DNA from: Clostridia bacterium
Lineage (GTDB): Bacteria; Bacillota; Clostridia; Oscillospirales; Acutalibacteraceae
DNA length: 64,000 nucleotides
NCBI GenBank assembly: GCA_017481575.1
Contig: JAFUPA010000054.1
Location: forward strand, 1-64,000
Direction of reading: 5' to 3'
Shown: positions 51,087 to 63,582 of the stretch, piece after piece
Layout: every line of letters starts with the position of its first letter
Position numbering within the stretch: the stretch's first letter is position 1
Made by a program: the position numbers and the translations under genes
The notes under the pieces: model-generated
The model's database searches: none
Seen by the model: only the letters and a program-made list of their open reading frames with translations
Told to the model about the DNA's origin: nothing

Positions 51087-51141
51087 TTGACATACTGACT
51101 CTTTAGGGATATAATATAGATGAGATAACTCTTTGGAGATA
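51087..51141 (+). promoter_or_regulatory. Consensus promoter with direct repeats, toxin-antitoxin operon
   Basis: TTGACA (51087-51092), 17 bases, TATAAT (51110-51115) matches the consensus perfectly. Near-identical direct repeats ACTCTTTAGGGATA (51098-51111) and ACTCTTTGGAGATA (51128-51141) are 30 bp apart and flank the -10 and start site, fitting binding by the operon's HTH protein. Confidence 0.75.
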
Positions 51142-51159
51142 GTGATTAGGAGGTTTATT

Positions 51160-51837
51160 ATGAATAAAATTATTTTATATCACGGTTCAAATGAAAAAAT
51201 TGAAAAGCCTCTTTTCGGTAAAGGTAAGGTTTATAATGATTATGGTCAAGGTTTTTATTGCACTGAACACCTAGAACTTGCCAAGGAATGGTCTTGTAAT
51301 GAGGGTGTTGACGGTTTCGCAAATAAGTATGAGATTGATTTAACGGGCTTGAAGATTTTAAATTTATCAGGGGAAGAATATACTATTCTTCATTGGCTTG
51401 CTCTGCTTATGGAGAATCGCCGTTTCCGTATATCAACTCCGGTTATGCGCAGAGGTGTTCAATGGTTGAAGGAGCACTTTTTGGTTGATATTGGTGAATA
51501 TGATTTAATTATTGGTTATCGTGCAGATGATTCATATTTTTCGTTTGCAAGAGCTTTTATAAGCAACGAAATTTCTTTAAGCCAGTTAAACTATGCAATG
51601 CGACTTGGTAAGCTTGGCGAACAATATGTTTTAAAAACCGAGAAAGCATTTAATCAGATAGAGTTTAAGTCTGCTGAATTGGCAGATAATACTATTTACT
51701 ATGCACGCAGAAAAATGCGAGATGATGAAGCTCGCAATGCTTTTTTTGCAGAGCTTGAAAAAGAAGATGTTAACGGTATTTATATGAGAGATATTATCAG
51801 AGAGGAAATGACAAGTGATGATGTACGCTTACGATGA
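51160..51837 (+). CDS. DUF3990-like ADP-ribosyltransferase-fold toxin candidate
   Basis: A 225-residue protein. It opens with ILYHGSNEKIEKP (5-17, His8) and DYGQGFYCTEHLELAKEWS (27-45, Tyr33), the H-Y pair layout of ADP-ribosyltransferase (ART) folds and of DUF3990. A later LGKLGEQYVLKTEKA (about 145-159) could supply the third conserved acid. The start at 51160 follows TAGGAGG. Its end overlaps the following HTH gene by 20 bases, so the two are coupled as in toxin-antitoxin pairs. AT-rich composition suggests transfer. Toxic activity is inferred. Confidence 0.75.
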   Translation: MNKIILYHGSNEKIEKPLFGKGKVYNDYGQGFYCTEHLELAKEWSCNEGVDGFANKYEIDLTGLKILNLSGEEYTILHWLALLMENRRFRISTPVMRRGVQWLKEHFLVDIGEYDLIIGYRADDSYFSFARAFISNEISLSQLNYAMRLGKLGEQYVLKTEKAFNQIEFKSAELADNTIYYARRKMRDDEARNAFFAELEKEDVNGIYMRDIIREEMTSDDVRLR

Positions 51838-52453
51838 AATGTATCTGAATGATGCTATGAAAAATTTAGGTGAAGCCTTTGATTATTCGGCAACAGTCTT
51901 GAATATTCCTATGGATGATTTTCTTGATATGTTCATTATAAGCGGTATTGCAGAACAATTTGCCGGTGGTGTTCCAAAATTCGTTTCTGGTCTTTCGGGG
52001 ACGGAGCTTGTATGGGAGGTTTTAAATCGGACAAAAAAAAATACTGTTTTGCCTGCACCACAGACCGAATACGATTACTCACCTGAATATTGGTGCGGTT
52101 GGATACTTGCATTTTATCAATGGAATACAGGAAAAAGCTTCAAGGAAATAAGAAAATATATTCCGATGAGTGAAATTTATAAGTTATACTCTACCTTGCA
52201 CGAAGCATCAGAGGAAAAGTTTGTTGATGTAGCAAATTCTATACTTGAGCGTAAAAATTTACCTACAAAATTACAGACAGTACGCAAGGCAATCGGGCTT
52301 TCACAAAAAGAGCTATCCGACAAATCCGGAGTTACATTAAGAATGATTCAGCAATACGAACAGCGAGCAAAAGATATAAACAAAGCGACTGCCAGCAGCT
52401 TGTTTGCATTAGCTCAAACGCTTGGTTGCAAAGCAGAGGATTTATTAGAATAA
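51818..52453 (+). CDS. HTH-containing partner (antitoxin candidate)
   Basis: A 211-residue protein. The N-terminal 90 residues (LNDAMKNLGEAFDYSATVLN, DDFLDMFIISGIAEQF) are helical and resemble DUF3791-type partners of DUF3990 proteins. The middle carries WCGWILAFYQWNTGKSF. The last 65 residues are a classic XRE HTH (LQTVRKAIGLSQKELSDKSG, VTLRMIQQYEQ). ATG at 51818 is chosen, with AGAGGAA upstream; GTG at 51815 is an alternative. It overlaps the toxin candidate and probably binds the direct repeats at the promoter. Confidence 0.8.
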   Translation: MMYAYDEMYLNDAMKNLGEAFDYSATVLNIPMDDFLDMFIISGIAEQFAGGVPKFVSGLSGTELVWEVLNRTKKNTVLPAPQTEYDYSPEYWCGWILAFYQWNTGKSFKEIRKYIPMSEIYKLYSTLHEASEEKFVDVANSILERKNLPTKLQTVRKAIGLSQKELSDKSGVTLRMIQQYEQRAKDINKATASSLFALAQTLGCKAEDLLE

Positions 52454-56623: not shown

Positions 56624-56922
56624 AAGTACCTCTGTGTATATTGCTATAAAATGTTCTGTTACCAAGAGTAAATTATACTTATTTTTGAACTAAAGTCAAT
56701 TGGCGATGTGCAGATATTGCACAAATAATGAGAAAAGAATTTAGTGATATTGACGAAATGCATTGAAGGCACTTTCATTTCGACCTCTTAGCTGTCGGTG
56801 TGTATATCTCTGACGTCGTCTTTGCCGACGGTTCGCCGCTGTAAAGGTTATAGAGTGAACCGTCAATCCCAGAACATAGACAATTTTACGCAACTCCACA
56901 AACCCATACAGAATAAAGAAAA

Positions 56923-56982
56923 ATCTCCCGATGCCTGAAGGCATCAAGAGATTTTTGGTCGGAGCATTCATTAGGGATTATA
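56923..56982. repeat. Terminator plus tRNA-3'-end-like element, copy 2
   Basis: A hairpin, AAAAATCTC..GATGCC/GGCATC..GAGATTTTT (56926-56957), is followed by TGGTCGGAGCATTCATTAGGGATT, the reverse complement of a tRNA-like 3' end. The hairpin is base-for-base the same as at 58608-58641. The rest of the 384-bp gap (56624-57007) holds only a CGTCG/CGACG hairpin near 56810-56830. Confidence 0.6.
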
Positions 56983-58390: not shown

Positions 58391-58670
58391 AGCACGATAG
58401 TTGCAATACCAATGGTATTATAACTATCGTGCTAATATGGTCGGAGCGGCGGGACACGGCTTTGCTTCGCAAATCCTGCGTCCTCGGCGACCGTTGCTTT
58501 GCAACAGTACCCGCCTCAGACTTCGGAGCTAAAAACAATTCACCGAATTGTTTTCTTAACGCTTCTCACCCTCTTAGGGTTCAAATCCCGCCCCCCAAAA
58601 AAAAAGAAAAATCTCCCGATGCCTGAAGGCATCAAGAGATTTTTGGTGCGAGTGTTCATAAGGGATTTAC
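58391..58670. repeat. Composite repeat: two terminators, tRNA-like ends and hairpins, copy 3
   Basis: A long hairpin AGCACGATAGTT...AACTATCGTGCT (58391-58433) precedes TGGTCGGAGCGGCGGGA (58438-58454). Then come TTTGC/GCAAA, GTTGC/GCAAC and CAATTC/GAATTG hairpins, a T-arm-like GGGTTCAAATCCCGCC (58577-58592), the AAAAATCTC hairpin shared with 56926-56957, and TGGTGCGAGTGTTCATAAGGGATTT. Spurious open frames cross it on both strands. Upstream, 58119-58390 shows no gene. Confidence 0.6.
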
Positions 58671-58757
58671 CAAAAATATAAGTAAAACCGCCTTCAAACA
58701 TAGTATTCTACACTCCCTACCTTGCTTAAACAGAGTAAAAAAGAAAGGACAAACACT

Positions 58758-59119
58758 ATGAAAACTAACAATATTACTTACAGACGAGTTGGCGATTACA
58801 GTATTCCTAATCTTACATTTCCACCCGAAGAAGCAAATATCACTCTTGGTAAATGGGGAATGTTACACAAGGATTATCTTTTGAAACACAAGAAAGTGGT
58901 GTTTGCAACCCTACTCGCCGAAGGCAAACTGTATCAACACTGTTCTGAATGGAAAAGCAGGCACAGCAAATGTTTGATATTCTTGTTGAACAAATGAAAG
59001 AAACAGAGGACGTAACCGAACAGTTAAAAGAAGAGAATCAGATGGAATGGGTGCAGATAATGGAGAATATTCAGCAACGGTCAACGGAGATTGTGTGTGA
59101 AGAGTGGATTTGTATTTAA
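58758..59119 (+). pseudogene. tnpV: Frameshifted tnpV (transposon-encoded protein TnpV)
   Basis: The first 64 residues (ITYRRVGDYSIPNLTFPPEE, LGKWGMLHKDYLLKHKK, LLAEGKLYQHCSE) match the intact TnpV at 63253-63582. One base is missing near 58948; the rest continues in the next frame from 58949 (MEKQAQQMFD, EDVTEQLKEENQMEWV) to the stop at 59119. It is therefore a broken copy. With the intact copy it brackets the dGTPase operon. AGAAAGGA precedes the start. Confidence 0.85.
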
Positions 59120-59180: not shown

Positions 59181-61760
59181 TTAATACACAGAAAAAGTAG
59201 CTCTCTCGGTATATTCTTGACTCCATTGTGCATTAGAAGAAACAATTTCATTATACTTCATTTCAGCCATTCTATCTGTCATTCCGGCTATGTAATCGGT
59301 TATAACTCTTAATGTGATCACTCGCCTTATTTCTTCTGGACTAACACCGAAGTTCATTTTAAATGATTTTAAGCTTATAGAGTTGTTGAAATTAATGCCA
59401 AATTTTTTAGATTCTACGTTATTATTAATAACTTTAATTATTAAAACTTTGCGAAGAAATTCAACAACTTTTTTTCGCGCATCTTTATTACCTTTTGTTT
59501 CTTTTAACTTTAAATAATAATACTCTAATAATGAATTTTGTAAACCATAACTATTTAAACTTGAAGCGGCAATCATGAACTCTTGTTCTATTCTATTTCG
59601 TTGCTTGAGGGGAAGCATACCAGGATTATTAGAATAGAATCTATAAAGTTCTTGAATTATCTGCTTAGCTGTATAATTCATGTTTGCTATTCGTGTACTT
59701 TTATTGTATTCGGCTTTGATAAAATCTGTTATGCCCTTTACGGCGCAAAAAACTTCTTTTTCAAAATTCACTAAAAATGATTCTTTTATGACTTCCTTTT
59801 TTTGATTTGAATTCATTTTTTTGTTCAATTTATTGTTTAGGACTTCGTTGGATACAGTTATAAATTCTTCTCTATCATAGCCATTTATATTGTTTTTACT
59901 CGTGTGTATAATTTTTTCAATAAGAGCTGGTGTTGTTGTATGTGGCAACAATTTGCAAAGATAGTTATAAATGATAAATATAGCATCCACTTTAGTTCCT
60001 ATTTTATTAGGTGTCTCATCTGTTATAATAATCCAGGATTTGGCAACAGAAAAAAAGGAGTGTAGGGTTTTATATTGTTCTGTGGAGAAATAAAAGTTAT
60101 TATTAGATTTAAACTTTTGAATGCTAATATTTGGGCTAGAATAATCCTTGCCTAATCTTTTTTCTGTTTCCTTTATTATTTTATCAAGAACTGTAATTAT
60201 ACTATCCATTAAAGGAGAATCATTTTCGGTAAATAAAGCATTAAGCTCCGTAATTTGTTGAACAATATTATTGATTGATTCTTTTTCAGGTTTAGTATTG
60301 CATGTATCATAAAGAACTTCACAATATTTGTTTTTTTTATCCATTTGAAACATTTGTATTATTATCATATTAACCCTATTTAGCATTTTTTCCAAATAGC
60401 CCATACTAACAAATTCTTCCCAATCGTGGCTCATATATGCTATTTTATCAGCCCAACAAACAATTTGAGTTTCAATACCTCCAAGTAAAACTCCGTTGTA
60501 TTTGTTGCAGTTTTCATAACCTACTGGTACAAAAAGATCGGAGCAATCATATTGCAATTTATATGCAGCGTTAGATATGTCTTCACTAAATGAATCAGTA
60601 TCATGTTTTAAAACGCCCTCAAGTACATGCTTTGAAATGCCAAGTCCACGTATGCCAAGAGGTTTAAGGGTTCTGTGAGAGCAAAGAAAGTCTAATACTT
60701 TTACACCTTGTATTGCGTGTGAAAAAGAACCAGCAAAATGCGCTTCAAGATAATCACGTATAGCATATTCACCTGCATGGCCAAATGGAGTATGTCCGAT
60801 ATCATGACCGATAGCAATTGTTTCTGCCAATTGACAGTTTGCACCTAAGGCCATCGCTATTTTTCTGCTTATTTTTTCAACCTCAAGAGAGTGCAATAGT
60901 CTTGTTCTTTGATCATCTGATACAGAATTAACCATTACTTGGGTTTTATACTGTAATCGTCTGAAAGCTTCCGTGCTGATTATTCTTTCCTCTTCGCGTT
61001 GAAAGAGGGTTCTCTTATCATCAAAAAACGCTTTTGCAATGTCTATTTTGTTTTGAAGTGATATTTCTATGTTATGGTGATTATGAGTTTTAAGCCCATA
61101 TGCATTATATACTTCTAAAAAGTCTTCGTTTTCTAAAGAGTCTTTATCATGTATGTGGACATTGTTTTTTATTAGAGGATAAGATAATCCGACAGGTTTG
61201 ATTCTATAATTAAAATAAGTTTCAAGGTATGGAGCTGTTTTAGCATTGGCAAGATGTTTTGATATGTTTTTATTAGAAAATTCATCTTTGCCAGTAATCT
61301 CACCTTCTTTTTCCATTTCTATAAAAACTGGGATAATAGGCTCCTGATATTCATTTTCTAATTCAATTTCCATAATTGCTTTATTAAAAAAGAAACAACT
61401 ATAGTTTTCAAAATTCTTATAAACATCGATTTCTATTATCTTACCTTCATAAGGAAATGAAAATCGTTCTTTTTCTATTGTTGCATATGTAGGGTCTAAC
61501 TCGTTTAAAAGATTATAATATTCTTCTGCTGTAATCTTTTTTTCAAATTCATTTCGGGACATTGATGTTATTTTTGTTTTTTCAGTATATGTATATACTA
61601 TATTTCCATTTATATCTATGTGTCTGATTCTGCGTTCGATATTACTATCACTTTTAAGATAGGTTTGTCTAATAAATTTAGTTTCACACCTAGGTATGCT
61701 TTTTATTAATTGTAAATCTGGATTTTTTATTAAATATTTTCGTTCAACTTCTATACCCAT
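59181..61760 (-). CDS. CYTH (triphosphate tunnel) domain fused to dGTPase-type HD phosphohydrolase
   Basis: An 859-residue two-enzyme fusion. Residues 1-185 form a CYTH domain: the ExExK motif EVERK (Glu4, Glu6, Lys8), IERRIRHID, ATIEKERF, IIEIDVYK (108-115) and IMEIELE (129-135). Residues 235-470 carry a dNTP triphosphohydrolase HD domain: FRRLQYKTQV, RTRLLHSLE (His290), IGHDIGHTPFGHAGE (His319, Asp320) and WADKIAY (Asp438), all metal ligands intact. The C-terminal region ends with DYIAGMTDRMAE, the usual dGTPase tail. Family dGTPases release inorganic triphosphate, and CYTH enzymes often hydrolyse it, so the two activities may be sequential. It is the second gene of an AT-rich operon. Confidence 0.85.
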   Translation of the reverse strand: MGIEVERKYLIKNPDLQLIKSIPRCETKFIRQTYLKSDSNIERRIRHIDINGNIVYTYTEKTKITSMSRNEFEKKITAEEYYNLLNELDPTYATIEKERFSFPYEGKIIEIDVYKNFENYSCFFFNKAIMEIELENEYQEPIIPVFIEMEKEGEITGKDEFSNKNISKHLANAKTAPYLETYFNYRIKPVGLSYPLIKNNVHIHDKDSLENEDFLEVYNAYGLKTHNHHNIEISLQNKIDIAKAFFDDKRTLFQREEERIISTEAFRRLQYKTQVMVNSVSDDQRTRLLHSLEVEKISRKIAMALGANCQLAETIAIGHDIGHTPFGHAGEYAIRDYLEAHFAGSFSHAIQGVKVLDFLCSHRTLKPLGIRGLGISKHVLEGVLKHDTDSFSEDISNAAYKLQYDCSDLFVPVGYENCNKYNGVLLGGIETQIVCWADKIAYMSHDWEEFVSMGYLEKMLNRVNMIIIQMFQMDKKNKYCEVLYDTCNTKPEKESINNIVQQITELNALFTENDSPLMDSIITVLDKIIKETEKRLGKDYSSPNISIQKFKSNNNFYFSTEQYKTLHSFFSVAKSWIIITDETPNKIGTKVDAIFIIYNYLCKLLPHTTTPALIEKIIHTSKNNINGYDREEFITVSNEVLNNKLNKKMNSNQKKEVIKESFLVNFEKEVFCAVKGITDFIKAEYNKSTRIANMNYTAKQIIQELYRFYSNNPGMLPLKQRNRIEQEFMIAASSLNSYGLQNSLLEYYYLKLKETKGNKDARKKVVEFLRKVLIIKVINNNVESKKFGINFNNSISLKSFKMNFGVSPEEIRRVITLRVITDYIAGMTDRMAEMKYNEIVSSNAQWSQEYTERATFSVY

Positions 61761-61786
61761 AATTGTTATACGTCCTTTCTTTTAAT

Positions 61787-63022
61787 TTAATAAGTAAGTA
61801 ACTCATTAAATGCTTTTATGGCAAAGCTGTCTGTCATGCCGGAAATGTAGTCAAGAATAGCACGTATATATGTTTTTCTGTTTGGTATTTTTTTATATAT
61901 TTTCTTGTTTTCACATTTAAGAGCTATTTCTTTAAACTCACCATCAGGTACTATCGTGCTATCACAATACTTAGCTAACCAAACCTTGAAAGACTTCACT
62001 AACATTGGACAAGCCTTTTCTTTTTTATCTAAAGCAACCCAAGAATGACTACCATCAAAAGCATCGAGTAAAAATGCAAAAATCTGTGTAATTACTAACT
62101 CCGAATATTTTTTATACGGTTCAAATCTTTCGTTTTTATAAATATAGTCATAATTGAATGCTTTTACTTCATTAAGTTGTTTTAAATATTTATCACTTAA
62201 GCAAATACCGTCAGCAGGAGAACTGTTGTTGCAAACATCAATAATCAGATTGTGCATAATAACAGTTGTATTCAAAACACTTTCGTCATTTATTCTTGCG
62301 AGTCTGAGTAATTTGCTTTTCTCTTCTTCACCAATAAAACCTAAGTTTATGGCGTCTTCAATATCTCTTCCTACATATGCAATTTTATCGGCTAACTTAA
62401 CAACACACCCTTCCCACGTTGCAGGTTGATATTGCCCTGGAGTTTTAAAGTCAGAAAAATCAATCAAGTCATTTCTAGGTTTAAGCCCGTTTTCATCCAC
62501 TTCACCACAATGAGAAATAATACCGTCTCTCACTGCGTAAGTTAAATCGAGATTTTTTGAAATCTTATAATTATCTTCCAGCAATTCAATATCATCGACA
62601 AAACGCAGTCCATTTCTTTCGTGCCAAAATTCTTCTTTCAAATACTTTTTACAAAGCTTCTTAATTACAGTTTCGCCTTGATGTCCAAAAGGAGCGTGTC
62701 CAAGGTCATGACCTATAGCAATAGATTTGGTTAATTCACCGTTTAACCCCAAATAATTAGCTATTGTGCTACTTACGGATTCTACATGCGCAACATGTTC
62801 CATACGAGTGCATATATGGTCATTGTTAATATTAAAAAACACTTGTGTTTTGTGCTTTAATCTTCTGTAGGCCATTGAATGCAAAATTCTTGTATAATCA
62901 CGTGCAAAAGGTGTCCTAATATCATCATTGCGAGAGTACAATGTCGAAGGACGTGCTGTTAGTTTGTCCCAATTTGGGTTATTTTCATTTGTTGCGTAAT
63001 CTTGAAAAATACCTTTAGTCAT
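61787..63022 (-). CDS. dGTPase-type HD phosphohydrolase
   Basis: A 411-residue dNTP triphosphohydrolase. The order is ARDYTRILHSMAYRRLKHKTQV (39-60), RMEHVAHVE (His76), IGHDLGHAPFGHQGE (His105, Asp106), KLADKIAYVGRD (Asp212) and the tail DYISGMTDSFA. All four metal ligands are present. It should cut dNTP to nucleoside and triphosphate. The start at 63022 follows AAAGGA with a nine-base gap. The CYTH-HD fusion gene lies 26 bases downstream. The two HD domains are clearly different from each other, so they may form a mixed oligomer. Confidence 0.92.
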   Translation of the reverse strand: MTKGIFQDYATNENNPNWDKLTARPSTLYSRNDDIRTPFARDYTRILHSMAYRRLKHKTQVFFNINNDHICTRMEHVAHVESVSSTIANYLGLNGELTKSIAIGHDLGHAPFGHQGETVIKKLCKKYLKEEFWHERNGLRFVDDIELLEDNYKISKNLDLTYAVRDGIISHCGEVDENGLKPRNDLIDFSDFKTPGQYQPATWEGCVVKLADKIAYVGRDIEDAINLGFIGEEEKSKLLRLARINDESVLNTTVIMHNLIIDVCNNSSPADGICLSDKYLKQLNEVKAFNYDYIYKNERFEPYKKYSELVITQIFAFLLDAFDGSHSWVALDKKEKACPMLVKSFKVWLAKYCDSTIVPDGEFKEIALKCENKKIYKKIPNRKTYIRAILDYISGMTDSFAIKAFNELLTY

Positions 63023-63083
63023 ACCAATCAATCCTTTCACAGATAGTTACATTATTAAAAAATAATCAACAAATAACTATATT

Positions 63084-63252: not shown

Positions 63253-63582
63253 ATGTCAAACAAAATTCAGTATCGCCGTGTGAGTGATTATCTAATTCCT
63301 AACCTCATCATACCACCTGAAGAAGCAAGTGTAAGACTTGGCAAGTGGGGTATGATACACAAAACCTATCTTGAAAGATATAAGAAGGTGTTTTTTAATA
63401 CACTTCTTATTCAAGGCAAACTTTATCAGCACTGTGCCGAGATAGAAAATCAGGCTCGTGAGATGTATGACACTCTCATTGAGCTAATGAAAGAAGCTGA
63501 AGGTGTAACCGAACAACTAAAAGAAGAAAATCAGATGGAATGGGTATGTCGTATGCAAAATATTGAAGCAAGGGCAAGATAG
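63253..63582 (+). CDS. tnpV: Transposon-encoded protein TnpV
   Basis: A 109-residue protein of the TnpV family found in clostridial transposons such as the Tn4451 group. It shows YRRVSDYLIPNL, LGKWGMIHKTYLERYKK, LIQGKLYQHCAEIENQAREM and GVTEQLKEENQMEWV. Its role in transposition is not settled. No large recombinase gene is seen here, so this is either the edge of an element or a solitary remnant. AAAGGAGG lies eight bases before the ATG. A frameshifted sister copy lies at 58758-59119 in the same orientation. Confidence 0.9.
   Translation: MSNKIQYRRVSDYLIPNLIIPPEEASVRLGKWGMIHKTYLERYKKVFFNTLLIQGKLYQHCAEIENQAREMYDTLIELMKEAEGVTEQLKEENQMEWVCRMQNIEARAR

Follow-up and report, generated by a model that had tools for sequence, protein, structure and literature searches.

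What does a bacterium do with an operon that encodes two HD-type deoxynucleoside triphosphate hydrolases (dNTPases) and joins one of them to a CYTH domain? The question is raised by two adjacent open reading frames (ORF2 and ORF1, in gene order) of a Clostridia bacterium of the family Acutalibacteraceae (assembly GCA_017481575.1, contig JAFUPA010000054.1), located in a stretch of 64,000 nucleotides (positions 1 to 64,000, hereafter the window) that an initial annotation, made from the sequence alone, had read as carrying a candidate nucleotide-depletion defence system. The two-gene layout proposed there (a 411-residue and an 859-residue protein, 26 bases apart) was verified at the level of coordinates, with the spacer at 61761-61786:

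61787..63022, reverse strand: ORF2, first gene of the pair, a 411-residue HD dGTPase-type protein read from the ATG at 63022
59181..61760, reverse strand: ORF1, second gene of the pair, an 859-residue fusion of CYTH and a dGTPase-type HD domain
61251..61760, reverse strand: CYTH/triphosphate tunnel metalloenzyme (TTM) domain, ORF1 residues about 1-170
60438..60896, reverse strand: HD catalytic domain, ORF1 residues 289-441
59184..60437, reverse strand: long, mostly helical C-terminal part of ORF1, with an HD_assoc motif at residues 816-837 (low-confidence model)

The start of ORF2 was taken as the ATG at 63022; the program-made list of reading frames begins it at a GTG at 63040. AGGA-type ribosome sites lie upstream of both ATGs, and the two genes are probably co-transcribed; promoter, terminator and tRNA scans gave nothing useful.

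The answer we prefer, tentatively and at a little short of an even chance, is an accessory operon for nucleotide depletion, carried horizontally and most likely directed against phage, in which CYTH serves as an attached triphosphatase that removes inorganic triphosphate (PPPi). ORF2 and the HD part of ORF1 would split deoxynucleoside triphosphates (dNTPs) into deoxynucleoside and PPPi, the conversion described for Dgts (PMC12186491). The CYTH domain would act as a two-metal TTM hydrolase on a triphosphate beside the HD sites, most simply the released PPPi, and one bacterial CYTH protein is reported to be a specific inorganic triphosphatase (PPPase; PMC3440374). Removal of PPPi would make the loss of dNTPs complete and would prevent PPPi from building up. 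The enzymatic activities, PPPi as the CYTH substrate, an assembly of the two proteins, a trigger and protection against phage are all presumed in this proposal. Its starting points are what the sequences and models indicate directly, namely the domains, their complete active sites, the fusion, the gene layout, a patchy distribution and a second association of CYTH with a dNTPase.

Both HD enzymes look catalytically complete. ORF1 and ORF2 each exceed the curated Pfam thresholds of HD and HD_assoc, match the PADLOC dGTPase model, and score above the 152.35-bit cut-off of the NCBIfam family TIGR01353 dGTP_triPase (186.3 and 167 bits for the pair). The metal site and the catalytic His/Glu dyad are complete in ORF2 (H76, H105-D106, H114, E117, D212), which accords with its original description as an intact HD dGTPase-type protein, and equally in ORF1 (H290, H319-D320, H328, E331, D438). 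His290, His319-Asp320 and Asp438, the ORF1 residues that had been singled out from the start, are invariant in a 17-row HD alignment, as are His328 and Glu331. The HD domain of ORF1 had also been called divergent; this is apt in that it falls in a clade of its own (see below), but its catalytic residues are intact and not degenerate. Because a combined alignment of the CYTH and HD parts misplaced the HD rows, the two parts of ORF1 were folded separately. The HD-part model is poor overall (pLDDT 55, best blocks 80-92) and only its core was used, for which fold matches include a Thermus dNTPase, the antiphage SpdGTPase and CloA.

For the N-terminal part of ORF1, standard family searches are silent. 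Pfam PF01928 (CYTH) has no match in ORF1, whether the whole protein or the N-terminus alone is searched, and no CYTH match is returned by NCBIfam (whole ORF1) or by PDB sequence searches (whole ORF1; N-terminus alone). This silence is not taken as absence of the domain, because PHROG, tblastn, alignment and fold search agree. Residues 1-171 match PHROG 6660 (E 2e-10), and in tblastn (E 0.01) the CYTH region reaches 15 phage and 31 plasmid records, some of them annotated 'CYTH domain-containing protein' or 'inorganic triphosphatase'; the PF01928 cut-off is passed by seven of the nine homologues of the ORF1 CYTH that were scanned. The motif residues of the domain (E4xE6xK8, R44xR46, K61, E71/E73, K97/R99, E110/D112/Y114, E131/E133) are strongly conserved: an alignment of ORF1 with 19 homologues (20 rows) has 17 invariant columns, among them E4, E6, R44, R46, K61, E71, E73, K97, R99, E110, D112, E131 and E133, and K8 of ExExK is nearly invariant. 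An AlphaFold2 model of residues 1-200 (input: the window sequence plus 36 homologues from viral contigs) contains eight long strands at pLDDT 87. Its top PDB matches in Foldseek are 2een (3.9e-7), SaTTM (7nsd; 2e-6) and AtTTM3 (5a67; 2.7e-6), with TM-scores of about 0.5 against the best matches; class IV cyclases match at 1e-4, and Mediator subunits appear from rank 23. Entry 2een is not titled as CYTH, and we take it to be a CYTH structure. Alignment, predicted structure and fold search, together with the PHROG match, thus indicate that a real CYTH fold occupies the N-terminus of ORF1, within the first 185 residues, where the initial annotation had placed it.

As to the kind of CYTH protein, published motif rules (PMC8233210) separate TTM hydrolases, class IV cyclases and thiamine triphosphatases. 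Class IV adenylyl cyclases (CyaB) are marked by HF four residues before ExExK, by loss of the first Arg of RxR and by replacement of the second Glu of ExE with Ala, and thiamine triphosphatases by W/YxRxR (PMC8233210). ORF1 starts with MGIEVERK, has no HF motif and retains R44, R46, E131 and E133; the class IV adenylyl cyclase reading is rejected on these motifs. Thiamine triphosphatase is not fitted either, with Glu42 in ORF1 at the W/Y position. By the published rules, the ORF1 CYTH is predicted to be of the triphosphatase (hydrolase) type and not a cyclase. It had been suggested that the domain senses or makes a nucleotide signal; making one in the manner of a class IV cyclase is unlikely on motifs, and sensing is taken up below.

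A pair of dNTPase genes might instead be a housekeeping pair carried by all relatives. This reading is rejected by the distribution and by the tree. A C-terminal stretch of about 400 residues in the HD part of ORF1 is common to only two other proteins found, one of 954 residues (G285:C56; family search) and one of 853 residues (G737:C47; order search), referred to here with ORF1 as long dNTPases. The genome samples (genus, family, order, phylum) overlap and many genomes are incomplete (the bacterium's own at 72.9%; 5 of 18 genus genomes pass the completeness filter), and the counts are to be read accordingly. The C-terminal query matches 2 of 394 genomes of the order, its own and G737, and the C-terminus of the G737 protein, used as a query, matches only the window's genome among 398 in the phylum sample. 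Within the genus, a long dNTPase occurs in 1 of 18 genomes (its own; none was found in the 17 others searched), and the corresponding figures are 1 of 3 genomes in the family of G737 and 1 of 5 in the genus of G285. Matches of dgt type, in contrast, are usual (15/18 in the genus, 253/300 in the family); the latter figure is that of the whole ORF1 query, for which nearly all among the matches listed span the common HD core.

In a tree of 36 rows (quick method, SH-aLRT support only), the HD part of ORF1 and the long dNTPases of G285 and G737 form one clade (support 100) on a long stem. This clade groups with eight of nine dNTPases from viral contigs and with a second dNTPase of G737 (support 95), and the dgt proteins usual in the family, including one from the same genome, fall apart from it. 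We assign the HD part of ORF1 to a subfamily of long dNTPases that is separate from housekeeping dgt. The operon is accessory and probably mobile. The second dNTPase of G737 that groups with the viral-contig enzymes is L226 (G737:C103), and a further second dNTPase occurs in a related genome (L221; G253:C15). A 383-residue dGTPase from the contig search (L031) is nearer to ORF2 than to ORF1; the grouping of ORF2 with L031 (94) was flagged as long branches meeting and was not used to place ORF2 among dGTPases.

The joining of CYTH to a dNTPase is not confined to ORF1. In G737, a gene for a 157-residue CYTH protein begins 25 bp after the stop codon of the long dNTPase, and this protein matches CYTH profile A2 at 3.2e-16 and Pfam CYTH at 4e-4 (20.6 bits, just under the 23.2-bit cut-off):

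G737:C47 (L114:1323-7107): long dNTPase, separate CYTH, then a C5 methyltransferase, a HaeII-type restriction enzyme and Vsr

The fusion in ORF1 and the adjacent genes in G737 make two cases of CYTH–dNTPase association, and they differ in gene order (CYTH precedes the dNTPase part in ORF1 and follows the dNTPase in G737); because the order is reversed, the fusion is not simply the G737 arrangement with a lost stop codon. The association is no general habit of CYTH genes, since a dNTPase was detected near CYTH in none of 47 genomic loci (phmmer, E 1e-4) and in none of 73 viral-contig loci (flanks up to 6 kb). The genomic loci comprise seven non-own matches of one search (one shared) and 40 further matches of 65 from another, of which 24 non-own matches were left out; flanks reached about 9-10 kb, and much less at contig ends. 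Of the 394 genomes sampled from the order, 62 have a CYTH match. A chance adjacency of CYTH and long dNTPase appears unlikely, judged from three long dNTPases.

These counts bear on the view that CYTH is a promiscuous module in the order, whose union with a dNTPase carries no joint function. Only one CYTH–dNTPase fusion was found, and CYTH is also fused to AAA_28 or pseudouridine synthase domains in the order, as this view would have it. Yet the association recurs as adjacent genes in opposite order, the other CYTH loci inspected do not lie near a detectable dNTPase, and ORF1 retains the key residues of its CYTH and HD parts; we consider an incidental fusion highly improbable. As a separate observation, CYTH often forms the C-terminal half of proteins of 360-440 residues in the order (24 genomic loci). 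Five such proteins were scanned (L072, L079, L086, L104, L074), of which four are AAA_28–CYTH proteins (one with an added HTH) and one is a pseudouridine synthase–CYTH protein.

The surroundings of the operon are consistent with its accessory character, and they also bring in a reading other than host defence. The features concerned are:

63253..63582, forward strand: TnpV-type transposon gene flanking the operon (Pfam PF14198, E 2e-36)
58722..59052, forward strand: apparently broken tnpV-like copy on the other side of the operon, recognized by nucleotide identity to the intact copy
51133-52453: PADLOC candidate PDC-M42A/B pair, a DUF3990 gene overlapping an HTH gene (E 7e-44 and 3e-11)
L034:14134-17800 and L227:372-3698 (contig C16, beyond the window): TIR, Kiwa and Mrr-AAA-TPR loci

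The two tnpV-like copies, 4493 bp apart in the same orientation, share a 104-nt stretch that is 79% identical. The five 1-kb windows starting at 59000 have a G+C content of 28.0-34.1%, vs. 34.5-41.0% in the nine to the left. The PDC-M42A/B candidate lies 6.7 kb left of the operon. Beyond the window, the contig also encodes a tyrosine integrase, a TIR protein (11.1 kb from ORF2), KwaA and KwaB of the Kiwa system (E 1e-61 and 5e-87) from 13.2 kb, and, further along, an Mrr-AAA-TPR protein with mobility genes that include a resolvase. Because GNAT, methyltransferase, GrpB, CPT-like and DeoR genes intervene between the operon and the TIR and Kiwa genes, we place the operon in a mobile, accessory part of the contig that includes defence genes, none of them directly beside it. 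The survey of neighbours for a defence island that had been proposed shows TIR, Kiwa and the PDC-M42 candidate on the contig, at 6.7-13 kb and not adjacent to the operon, and the HaeII-type system next to the G737 pair. The stretch L034:3828-10997, a row of GNAT, GrpB-GNAT, methyltransferase, CPT-like kinase and phosphatase genes that share one strand, has the look of a cargo array. Separately, the copies of a 68-nt repeat (56912-56979 and 58600-58667, 91% identical) contain a short inverted repeat with a T-rich stretch after it, and may represent the end of a small mobile element or a terminator.

An accessory operon in such a setting could serve the element that carries it, by adjusting the dNTP pool, by salvage or by removal of unmodified nucleoside triphosphates. 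The TnpV-type genes on both sides, the mobility genes on the contig and the distance to the defence genes (6.7-13 kb) would suit such a use, as would the grouping of the ORF1 HD part with viral-contig dNTPases and the CYTH genes of the 73 viral-contig loci. CYTH proteins of jumbo phages have been proposed to degrade nucleotides with unmodified bases (PMC7824862). On the other side, no dNTPase ORF was detected near CYTH in those viral loci, no long dNTPase was confirmed in viral contigs (by protein or by alignment), coverage of ORF1 reaches 80% in no phage or plasmid record, and its C-terminal part matches no plasmid. Metabolism for the element's own use seems improbable to us. As single queries against viral contigs, neither CYTH nor ORF2 returned a match. 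The 73 viral-contig loci (L118-L190) encode CYTH proteins, 26 of them on contigs longer than 100 kb.

Several observations weigh against the depletion operon with a PPPi-removing CYTH that we prefer. In Escherichia coli, pyrophosphatase accounts for most PPPi hydrolysis, and PPPi was not found in significant amounts (PMC3440374), so a dedicated PPPase could be redundant; one characterized Dgt left phage susceptibility unchanged (PMC12186491). The close neighbours (TnpV, DUF5412, Imp-YgjV, GNATs, methyltransferases, GrpB, CPT-like kinase) include no defence genes, and the nearest known or candidate ones found are those at 6.7-13 kb. The searches turned up just three long dNTPases in all. In the 19-kb locus of G285, neither CYTH nor a further HD gene was detected, and no counterpart of ORF2 lies beside the long dNTPase of G285 or that of G737. 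Finally, the CYTH protein of G737 has Y, K, S and V at the positions of ORF1 K97, R99, D112 and Y114, a poor fit to a plain PPPase.

The last point also suits a different use of the same depletion operon, in which CYTH acts on a nucleotide that bears a triphosphate (a dNTP or a p3diT-like signal), by binding or by cleaving it, and thereby restrains or releases the HD enzymes. The G737 CYTH retains ExExK, RxR and ExE and loses other conserved residues, a pattern as compatible with binding as with catalysis, and holding a triphosphate is what a TTM domain is built for. The dNTPase of Clover, CloA, is toxic on its own and is inhibited by a 5'-triphosphorylated dinucleotide, the product of its partner enzyme (PMC12265719). 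The placement of CYTH, N-terminal in ORF1 and a separate downstream gene in G737, is regulator-like. The N-terminal part of the long dNTPases is variable: those of G285 and G737 give no match to CYTH, and BLASTP finds no significant similarity between the two or with the N-terminus of ORF1. Against control of this kind, the ORF1 CYTH retains the full hydrolase pattern, and no signal maker was found next to the pair, where the adjoining genes hold no Pfam nucleotidyltransferase (no CloB model was run). The other strand carries a GrpB-GNAT gene at a distance of 1.8 kb from ORF2, and GrpB is, we assume, nucleotidyltransferase-like. Control by CYTH is the main alternative, although we think it unlikely. 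Slightly more doubtful is the version in which the tunnel domain senses or breaks down a triphosphorylated nucleotide, dNTP or signal, and so sets the activity of both the attached HD dNTPase and the partner dNTPase.

Depletion of dNTPs is an established antiviral strategy of bacteria and animals, the control of which is only beginning to be understood (Clover, 2025). The operon described here links a dNTPase physically to a module for processing triphosphate, next to another dNTPase gene, and the association recurs as separate genes elsewhere; this offers a testable connection between the destruction of dNTPs and the handling or sensing of triphosphate. It also suggests what some members of the large CYTH family of bacteria may do. 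The initial annotation knew of no described system with this architecture, and no description of a CYTH–dNTPase defence system turned up in the literature searched, which mostly lay outside subscription papers. The CYTH-fused double dNTPase operon may thus be a variant of dNTPase-based defence not previously described.

Among known systems, the housekeeping dgt of the same genome (G000:C1, L036; called housekeeping because of its wide occurrence) belongs to the same superfamily as ORF1 and ORF2, with identities of 36.8% over 209 residues to ORF1 and 31.0% over 377 residues to ORF2; unlike the pair, it is about 340 residues long and usual across the family, and the HD part of ORF1 lies in another clade. 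The CYTH/TTM triphosphatases (SaTTM, AtTTM3, ygiF) share ExExK, RxR, DxY, ExE and the eight-strand model with ORF1, and two of them, SaTTM and AtTTM3, are among its best fold matches, whereas the ORF1 domain is joined to a dNTPase and falls below Pfam detection. Single-gene antiphage dGTPases (SpdGTPase, PDB 9p8w; NF041026) share the HD motif and the HE dyad, and ORF1 matches 9p8w at E 6e-22; the pair differs in its fused CYTH, its two enzymes and its longer C-terminal part, and scores 137.5 and 126.1 bits vs. the 400-bit cut-off of NF041026. Clover (CloA dGTPase and CloB nucleotidyltransferase; PMC12265719) is likewise a two-gene operon with an HD dNTPase effector, the core of the ORF1 HD part resembles CloA in fold, and the partner handles a triphosphate-bearing nucleotide in Clover, as it would here. 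The main text of PMC12265719 makes no mention of CYTH; the operon described here has a dNTPase-fused CYTH and a second dNTPase gene, and no nucleotidyltransferase of the CloB type was found next to it. If the tunnel domain does set the activity of the two dNTPases, the operon would parallel Clover, with a hydrolase or a sensor instead of a signal-making nucleotidyltransferase.

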